Shown: piece by piece, positions 29,713 through 31,884 of the stretch | Position numbering within the stretch: the stretch's first letter is position 1 | How the letters are laid out: each line of letters opens with the position of its first letter | From: Sphingopyxis sp. RIFCSPHIGHO2_12_FULL_65_19 | GTDB lineage: Bacteria; Pseudomonadota; Alphaproteobacteria; Sphingomonadales; Sphingomonadaceae | Reading direction: 5' to 3' | Assembly (NCBI RefSeq): GCF_001830555.1 | Contig: NZ_MIAM01000064.1 | Span: forward strand, 1 to 64,000 | DNA length: 64,000 bases | The notes under the pieces: generated by a model | Told to the model about the DNA's origin: nothing | Database searches by the model: none | Seen by the model: only the letters and a program-made list of their open reading frames with translations | Translations under genes and position numbers: made by a program

Positions 29713-30819
29713 ATGGATTCCAAGCACAACCAACCGACGCCTTACACCTATGCCGGTGCGGGCGTATCAATCGAGACCGGCAACGCGCTGGTCCGTGCCA
29801 TTGCCCCGCTCGCCCGTGCGACGCGCCGTCCGGGCGCCGACGCGGATCTCGGCGGCTTTGGCGGTTTCTTCGACCTGAAGGCGGCGGGTTTCAACGATCC
29901 GTTGCTGGTCGCCGCGAACGATGGGGTGGGCACGAAGCTCAAGCTCGCCATCGAATCGGGCAAGCATGATGGTGTGGGCATCGACCTGGTCGCCATGTGC
30001 GCGAACGACCTGATCGTCCAGGGTGCCGAACCGCTGTTTTTCCTCGACTATTATGCCACCGGGAAACTCGACAATGATGTCGCGACCGAAGTCGTCGCGA
30101 GCATTGCCGAAGGCTGCAAACAGGCCGGCTGCGCGCTGATCGGCGGCGAAACCGCCGAAATGCCGGGCATGTATTCCGATGGCGATTACGACCTCGCGGG
30201 CTTCTGCGTCGGTGCGGTCGAGCGCGACCAGGTGCTCACCGCCGACAAGGTGGCGGCAGGCGACGTGATTTTGGGCCTTGCCTCGTCGGGTGTCCACTCG
30301 AACGGCTTTTCGCTCGTCCGCCGCCTTGCCGCGGACAAGGGGTGGAAACTCGACCGCCCGGCCCTGTTCGACCAGAATATCCTGCTGATCGACGCGCTGA
30401 TGGCGCCGACGCGCATCTATGTCAAAAGCCTGCTGCCGCTGGTGAAGACCGGCCAGATCCACGCGCTCGCGCATATCACGGGCGGCGGGCTGCTCGAAAA
30501 TATCCCGCGCATCCTGCCCAAGGCGCTGCACGCGCACATCGACGCCGACGCATGGGCGCAGCCGCGGTTGATGGCCTTTCTGCAAGCGCAGGGGAATATC
30601 GAACCCGAAGAAATGGCGCGGACGTTCAATTGCGGCATCGGGATGGCGGTCGTCGTGGCGGAAGCCGATGCTGACGCTGTGACCGCGGCGCTGGAAACCG
30701 CAGGCGAAACGGTGTTTCGCATCGGCCATATCGCTGCTGGCGACAAGGGCTGCACCGTGACCGGCAGCACCGAAACCTGGAGCGCGATGGGGGCGTGGAG
30801 CGCGACGCATAATGCATAA
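29713..30819 (+). CDS. purM: phosphoribosylformylglycinamidine cyclo-ligase (AIR synthetase)
   Basis: Closes the imidazole ring in purine synthesis, converting FGAM to AIR with ATP. 368 aa from the ATG at 29713 ([20 protein letters not shown]). Conserved blocks are [49 protein letters not shown] and [13 protein letters not shown]. An upstream reading from 29599 has no resemblance. It is followed by an inverted-repeat element and purN. Confidence 0.97.
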
Positions 30820-30831
30820 CGCGGCAAAGTC

Positions 30832-30929
30832 CCCCTCCCGCTTGCGGGAGGGGCTAGGAGTGGGCGCGAGCGAAGCGAGTTCCTGCCATGTCGCTGCCCA
30901 CCCCCGACCCCTCCCGCAAGCGGGAGGGG
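30832..30929 (+). repeat. paired palindromic intergenic repeat between purM and purN
   Basis: Two palindromes, each made of the arms CCCCTCCCGC and GCGGGAGGGG, stand at 30832-30853 (centre TT) and 30908-30929 (centre AA). Each is the exact reverse complement of the other, so they can fold singly or pair across. A shorter internal stem GTGGGC (30860-30865) / GCCCAC (30896-30901) lies between. The right arm ends four bases before the purN GTG and supplies its GGGAGGGGA ribosome-binding sequence. Confidence 0.85.
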
Positions 30930-30933
30930 AGAC

Positions 30934-31884
30934 GTGAAAGCCAAGGTCGCCGTCCTGATCTCGGGCGCCGGGACCAATATGGCGGCGTTGCTTTATGCCG
31001 CGAAGGCGGAGGCCTGTCCGTACGAGCTGGTGCTGGTAACGGGCGACAATCCCGAGGCGCCCGGTCTTTCGCTTGCCGAGGTCGAGGGGATTGCGGTCGT
31101 CCGCATTCCAAAACCGACGCCAAAAGATAAATCTCGGTTCTTTGCGGCGCTGGATATCCAGATTCGTAAGGCCGGCGCCGAATATATCGCGCTCGCCGGT
31201 TTTATGCGCATCCTGCCTGAAGATTTCGTCCGGGCTTGGGAAAACCGGATGCTCAATATTCACCCCAGTCTACTGCCGCGCTACAAGGGACTCGACACCC
31301 ACCAGCGCGCGATCGACGCAGGCGACAAATCCGGCGGGTGCAGCGTCCATATCGTCACCCCCGGGGTCGATGATGGCCCGGTGCTCGCACAGACGCCGGT
31401 CGCGATCATCCCCGGCGATACCCCCGAAACCCTCGCGCGGCGGGTCCAGTTCGCGGAACACCAGCTTTACCCCGCCACCCTCGCCGCCTTCGTGACGCGC
31501 GAACGCTCGCCCGACTATCTGCGCGCCCGCGTGCGCGAACTCGCGATGGCGCTGCCCGAAGCCGACGAGGTCACTTCGCACGGCATGCCCTGTTTCGGGA
31601 TCGTGAAGGGCAAGAAATTCGCCTATTTTACCGAGGATCACCACGGCGATGGCAAGATCGCGCTGCTGGTCAAGATCAGCGGCGCCGACGAACAGGCCGC
31701 GCTGATCGAGATGGACGCGGATCGCTATTACCGCCCCGCCTATTTCGGCGACGGCTGGATCGGCATCCGGCTCGACCTCGGCGATACCGAATGGGACGCG
31801 ATCAGCGACTGGCTGCGCAAGAGCTGGCTGGCGGTCGCGCCGAAGAAACTGGCGGGTTTGATGGCTATTGCCGAAGATTTCTGA
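30934..31884 (+). CDS. purN: GAR formyltransferase fused to a MmcQ/YjbR domain
   Basis: Residues 1-190 are a complete phosphoribosylglycinamide formyltransferase (purine synthesis, formyl-THF dependent): LISGAGTNMAALL, then NIHPSLLPRYKG with catalytic N108 and H110, and VDDGPV with D146. Residues about 195-316 form a second domain like MmcQ/YjbR proteins: ARVRELAMALPEADEVTSHG, MPCFGIVKGKKFAYF, LLVKISGADEQAAL, GWIGIRLDL. PurN alone is normally about 190-215 aa. The GTG start at 30934 uses a ribosome site lying inside the upstream repeat. The role of the extra domain is unknown. Confidence 0.93.
   Translation: MKAKVAVLISGAGTNMAALLYAAKAEACPYELVLVTGDNPEAPGLSLAEVEGIAVVRIPKPTPKDKSRFFAALDIQIRKAGAEYIALAGFMRILPEDFVRAWENRMLNIHPSLLPRYKGLDTHQRAIDAGDKSGGCSVHIVTPGVDDGPVLAQTPVAIIPGDTPETLARRVQFAEHQLYPATLAAFVTRERSPDYLRARVRELAMALPEADEVTSHGMPCFGIVKGKKFAYFTEDHHGDGKIALLVKISGADEQAALIEMDADRYYRPAYFGDGWIGIRLDLGDTEWDAISDWLRKSWLAVAPKKLAGLMAIAEDF

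Follow-up and report, generated by a model that had tools for sequence, protein, structure and literature searches.

To our knowledge, proteins of the MmcQ/YjbR family (PF04237, DUF419) have no established biochemical role. One paper (PMC7641849), citing Singarapu 2007 and Feldmann 2012, describes the YjbR fold as a DNA-binding 'double wing', and also reports MmcQ/YjbR-EVE fusion proteins, in which YjbR is a module of a multi-domain protein and its partner is a modified-base-binding domain that is often found in defence contexts. The locus considered here resembles those fusions in its modular build but differs in its partner, which is the purine enzyme PurN. It lies in a stretch of 64,000 nucleotides of Sphingopyxis sp. 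RIFCSPHIGHO2_12_FULL_65_19 (contig NZ_MIAM01000064.1, positions 1 to 64,000), a member of the Sphingomonadaceae, and this whole stretch is called the window throughout. No description of a PurN-YjbR fusion was found in searches of the open-licence PMC literature, where YjbR and PurN are mentioned together in one gene list that draws no link between them; InterPro may list the architecture.

A complete PurN joined to a complete YjbR domain

The original prediction held that a complete GAR transformylase gene in the window runs on without a stop through a full MmcQ/YjbR domain, and Pfam, NCBIfam and the genomes of relatives all bear this out. The gene (Table 1) is a single open frame of 316 codons in which a complete PurN passes straight into a full YjbR domain.

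Table 1. Coordinates of the features discussed, in positions of the window.
Feature	Coordinates	Strand	Remarks
purM (AIR synthase)	29713..30819	+	directly upstream; purM-purN(yjbR) order
purN-yjbR fusion gene	30934..31884	+	316 aa, GTG start, TGA stop
GAR transformylase domain (Formyl_trans_N)	30943..31479	+	residues 4-182; N108, H110, D146 in place
Fusion junction	31498..31512	+	residues 189-193, R-E-R-S-P
YjbR (PF04237) domain	31546..31830	+	residues 205-299; H216, H236, H237, E253

From its sequence, the first half is predicted to be a GAR transformylase (PurN). Formyl_trans_N is matched with 179.5 bits against a cut-off of 26.1, and the NCBIfam PurN model TIGR00639 with 181.9 bits, above its curated cut-off of 150.1, so that the enzyme domain is as complete as had been proposed. 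N108, H110 and D146, which we take to be the catalytic Asn, His and Asp of PurN, are invariant in 38/38 aligned fused proteins and are present in all 115 PurN rows used for the tree below (59 fused, 30 domain-less behind purN, 23 with an adjacent yjbR and three with one near by). Structure comparison recovers the GAR transformylase fold, with 1njs at Z 28.4 (rmsd 2.3, 194 aligned) and 4ds3 at Z 28.2 (rmsd 1.6, 186 aligned); the latter PurN, among the nearest solved structures, is 48% identical over 189 columns. The window gene thus shares with PurN the whole domain and the invariant N/H/D set, but whereas the unfused PurNs of the family stop at about 182-200 residues, its product continues into a second domain with no linker. 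Within the PurN half, positions 31069-31248 (residues ~46-105) agree with the genus consensus at only 25/60 positions, carry one extra residue and have a lower GC3 (0.55-0.65), while most other PurN sequence agrees well; this segment looks like a recombined piece from another lineage.

The second half matches PF04237 over profile positions 1-87 of 88 (40.1 bits, cut-off 30.1), and residues 190-316 taken alone score 42.8 bits, so that the C-terminal stretch (residues 195-316) earlier assigned to YjbR does fit the family profile. Searched by sequence against the PDB, the YjbR part gave no convincing match, and its solved relatives were reached by fold comparison only. Modelled alone (best pLDDT 92.4; five models, 76.5 to 92.4), it matches best the DUF419/YjbR structures 2a1v (Z 12.2, rmsd 3.2, 117 aligned), 3h9x (Z 12.0, rmsd 2.4, 104 aligned) and 2fki (Z 10.8, rmsd 3.4, 113 aligned), which together with 2kfp (Z 8.8) head the list. 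Further down come 9t2w, annotated as 'YdhG-like domain-containing protein, Frataxin' (Z 7.7, rmsd 4.0, 103 aligned), the MotA C-terminal domain of phage T4 (1kaf; a weak Z 5.2, rmsd 4.3, 95 aligned) and the frataxin 4hs5 (Z 5.0, rmsd 3.7, 88 aligned). Profile match and fold are therefore held in common with the MmcQ/YjbR family, from which the window domain differs in being fused to, and co-inherited with, PurN.

The YjbR domain also carries residues of its own. H216, H236, H237 and E253 are invariant in 62/62 PurN-linked YjbR sequences compared (39 fused, 23 adjacent or near). Among 25 standalone copies drawn from the class, the family and the window's own genome (five of them from one genus), H216 is kept in one and E253 in eight, and the H236/H237 columns are a gap in 15 and mostly other residues in the rest. 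The motif S-H-G, an inserted H-H loop and E253 thus form a signature of the PurN-linked YjbR that is rare in these standalone proteins. Judged by the strand order of the model, H216 falls in the turn joining strands 1 and 2, and H236-H237 in the loop that links strand 3 to strand 4, which would put all three at one end of the sheet. Five YjbR matches from a plasmid and phage collection were examined, and one, a standalone protein of Nonomuraea gerenzanensis (38.6% identity), has both SHG and HH but, unlike the window gene, no purN match within 3 kb; the motif is therefore not exclusive to PurN-linked copies. Three of the others have HG, and no relative was found on viral contigs. The window's own genome has a second, standalone YjbR-like gene (G000:C63:91205-91456, L188), which sits at the Pfam cut-off (about 30.0-30.1 bits) and is without the HH loop.

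Distribution of fused, adjacent and domain-less forms

The same continuous frame is present in 30/35 other genomes of the genus that were searched, so that neither assembly error nor chance is its source. The 34 named loci nearest to the window's YjbR part are 87-94% identical to it, 29 of them from Sphingopyxis. Across the family, a PurN match was obtained in 288/298 genomes (E 1e-30), and seven of the 10 genomes without one are under 90% complete. These matches fall on either side of a gap in E-value, from 5.9e-87 to 1e-75, into 181 fused and 107 unfused; the fused ones reach query residue 306 or beyond among the matches listed, the rest of the 181 being classed by E-value, and of the borderline fused matches re-examined, G098 extends to residue 315 and G121 only to 265. 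The survey of PurN in sphingomonads has thus come out in favour of the original prediction, and the suspicion that a sequencing or assembly error merged purN and yjbR, for which no point in favour was found, is refuted by a fused state in 181/288 PurN-bearing family genomes and retains practically no probability. The fusion is a trait inherited across a lineage and not the oddity of a single genome.

The 107 unfused genomes, which were assigned to classes by hand, comprise 29 with a separate yjbR directly downstream of purN, five from one genus with yjbR ~610-670 bp downstream, three with an unlinked yjbR elsewhere, one with yjbR on broken contigs and 69 that gave no YjbR match at E 1e-8. When these 69 were searched with a profile, five had weak matches, and in 64 no copy matched the subfamily profile at E 1e-5. 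In the genus with the displaced gene (L056, L057, L058), the ~610-670 bp arrangement was seen in 5/6 genomes.

Beyond the family, none of 24 genomes from other families of the order was fused, every PurN match there ending by query residue 208, and this YjbR was found in 0/24 of them at 1e-5. In a survey of the class, the YjbR profile was matched in 23/289 genomes at 1e-8, four of which are family members hit at the fused gene; the 19 from outside the family had no purN match in the flanks (up to 1.5 kb per side, shorter at contig ends). Among 299 genomes of the phylum, there were eight full-length matches at E 1e-55, a cut-off that would miss a strongly diverged fusion, and all eight fell within the Sphingomonadaceae. 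In these samples of order, class and phylum, the PurN-YjbR fusion is accordingly seen inside the family only. YjbR as such was found in 7/14 well-known control genomes.

The junction and the origin of the fusion

The whole protein is modelled with confidence along its full length (pLDDT 92.9, pTM 0.86), and the model shows no disordered linker; the last PurN helix is predicted at residues 164-190 and is followed, after two residues, by the first YjbR helix at 193-205. The distance between the codons of Y179 and P208 is 87 nt in 59/59 fused loci, and an invariant junction length suggests that its geometry matters. In none of the 23 adjacent loci can the same distance be divided by 3, and its commonest value is 89 (9/23). 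In 14/20 adjacent unfused loci that were fetched, the purN stop and the yjbR start, the latter chosen by script, share four bases (ATGA or GTGA) at the place of the junction; the overlap is ~30 bases long in four others and 11 in another, and the last, L046, is a MAG locus with a broken frame. A constant 87 nt in the fused loci, set against a distance never divisible by 3 in the adjacent ones, indicates that an indel in the overlap joined the two frames. An internal start that would also yield free YjbR was considered and rejected: a GTG codon occurs at residue 187 in 14/59 and at residue 200 in 30/59 fused loci, which is too poor a conservation to argue for it.

The history of the gene was followed in a tree of the 115 hand-picked PurN rows, in which two of the 30 domain-less ones (L059, L060) have a yjbR elsewhere. 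All 59 fused rows lie behind one branch, with 98% SH-aLRT support (100/98 in a fuller run), and several independent fusions are thus unneeded. The same branch also holds 20 domain-less rows and L046 (genome G322, 76% complete), whose frame is broken at the junction and which is the sole row of the clade that is neither fused nor lost; the other 22 adjacent rows and all three near rows fall outside. The fused label changes 17 to 19 times on the tree, at least seven of these changes being demanded by well-supported branches, and a topology in which the fused rows alone form a clade is rejected (p-AU 8.1e-6), so the losses of YjbR inside the clade are real. The data thus support a single fusion and many losses of YjbR after it. 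A brief piece of sequence after the purN stop of L065, a member of the genus, resembles, by eye, the YjbR end (LEAVTPKKLTAM), as expected of a remnant left by an internal deletion; a scan of 28 loci for YjbR remnants behind domain-less purN genes found nothing convincing.

On the reading that sequence and tree support, purN and yjbR would have stood side by side, in most cases overlapping, in an ancestor within the Sphingomonadaceae. A single indel in this overlap would have changed the frame and fused the two genes once; much of the family would then have received the composite by descent, and YjbR would have been dropped again several times. Both this repeated loss and the existence of related PurNs that have intact catalytic residues but no YjbR mark the domain as an accessory that PurN does not require.

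Genomic context and conservation of the two halves

Downstream of purN-yjbR lies ndk, in convergent orientation. Between purM and purN there is a palindrome pair, CCCTCCCGC and GCGGGAGGG, at 30833-30852 and 30909-30928, which supplies the apparent ribosome-binding site of purN. The genome has 34 such sites, some paired 74-93 bp apart, like a REP/REPIN doublet, and a similar palindrome end precedes purN in 3/9 other genus loci compared (L006, L009, L010).

The window's genome also encodes PurT (536.7 bits, cut-off 502.15), so PurN is not its sole GAR transformylase and the pathway step is redundant. PurT was also considered as a factor behind the retention of YjbR: in a hand-picked sample uncorrected for kinship, it is present in 12/13 fused and 2/2 domain-less genomes within the genus and, outside it, in 6/12 fused, 4/19 domain-less and 1/7 adjacent genomes.

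Within the genus, YjbR is in most comparisons the better conserved half. Among eight members compared without the window, median identity is 91.5% for YjbR and 84.3% for PurN, with YjbR ahead in 25/28 pairs. Over all 37 aligned rows, again without the window, the values are 71.8% and 67.0%, and in this wider family sample YjbR exceeds PurN in only 388/666 pairs. Compared with the window, 37 loci have a median dN of 0.057 for YjbR and 0.215 for PurN, and dN/dS, read from the table by eye, is lower for YjbR in 34/37; this sample is biased, both by a choice of loci that followed their similarity in YjbR and by the partly mosaic PurN of the window, and pairwise identity without the window is the fairer comparison. 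Since YjbR has the lower dS as well, in 37/37 loci, selection on the protein does not account for the whole difference in conservation.

A standalone gene for a related YjbR occurs in another genus of the Alphaproteobacteria, where it stands divergently beside gcvT, which encodes the glycine cleavage T-protein, likewise a folate enzyme, in 5/5 genomes with a close copy (L161, L163, L189, L190, L191; seven family genomes were searched). All of these copies come from the single genus and are without the HH loop.

Possible roles of the YjbR domain

The earlier view of the fusion as a functional clue stands, and from it we infer what the YjbR part may do. The fusion, the former overlap and the pattern of loss tie the domain to PurN, and we lean, tentatively and with little less than even confidence, towards a rigid accessory that probably binds a ligand or metal and tunes or assists the GAR transformylase step. 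The domain would be fixed to the C-terminal helix of PurN and pack rigidly beside it; its conserved His, Lys and Glu residues may bind a ligand or a metal ion, and this binding could regulate or assist formyl transfer to GAR, for example if the domain senses a metabolite of purine or one-carbon metabolism or handles an unstable substrate or product. Against this reading stand the dispensability of the domain, shown by its repeated loss, which would suit a passenger too, the SHG and HH motif of a YjbR without a purN near by, the narrow lead of YjbR over PurN in the wider family sample, the lower dS of YjbR, the less uniform acidity of adjacent copies and the redundancy with PurT.

Of the alternatives, a separate function for the YjbR domain, for instance as an enzyme or chaperone of nearby metabolism that is merely co-expressed with PurN, is unlikely but survives best. 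The fusion would then have taken over from translational coupling, with no functional coupling, and the four-base overlap of most adjacent loci already ties expression in this way. The displaced yjbR of five genomes and the unlinked gene of three agree with such a history, as do the greater conservation of the YjbR half and the back-up of PurN by PurT in Sphingopyxis. The invariant junction and the confident, linker-free model count against it by suggesting that geometry matters, and the domain is rarely retained elsewhere in genomes without it behind purN, 64/69 having no copy that matches the subfamily profile at E 1e-5.

Somewhat less probable still is that the domain binds DNA through its double-wing fold and that the protein moonlights as a regulator linking transcription to purine flux. 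The match to YjbR/DUF419 structures, the fold name in PMC7641849 and the similarity to the MotA DNA-binding domain (Z 5.2) favour this, but that last score is weak and about equalled by frataxin (5.0), and His and Glu, not a basic patch, are found among the polar residues that vary least. The fused YjbR part is moreover acidic, with a net charge of -2 to -9 in 39/39 fused proteins and a median pI of 5.14, whereas the 23 unfused adjacent or near copies, within this comparison of PurN-linked sequences, are less uniformly so, with net charges between -9 and +2 and a pI as high as 8.8. This acidity would speak, weakly, against DNA binding, and together with the His/Glu/Lys signature it favours a ligand or metal over DNA.

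There is, finally, a small chance that the domain is a structural module that stabilizes PurN or sets its oligomeric state and has no ligand of its own. The rigid junction, and the fact that the domain begins where unfused PurN stops, would suit such a module, but it leaves the invariant polar His/Lys/Glu set unexplained, and unfused PurNs of the same clade manage without the domain.

Implications for the YjbR family

A ligand- or metal-binding accessory of PurN could be one case of something wider. The fusion to PurN in sphingomonads and the adjacency to gcvT in a related YjbR branch hint, and do no more than hint, that such YjbR proteins are partners of folate one-carbon enzymes, forming a small module that handles a metal or formyl-folate and so sets or protects the transfer of one-carbon units. 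This is an outside chance, set back by gcvT-side copies that have no HH loop and come from one genus; if true, a widespread family that at present bears the label 'DNA-binding' would gain a biochemical role. Because fused, split and domain-less versions occur naturally within one family, the function of YjbR is directly testable in a GAR transformylase assay, and the fusion, which is conserved, apparently of one origin and made to a purine enzyme that is well understood, offers a concrete lead to the function of the YjbR family.
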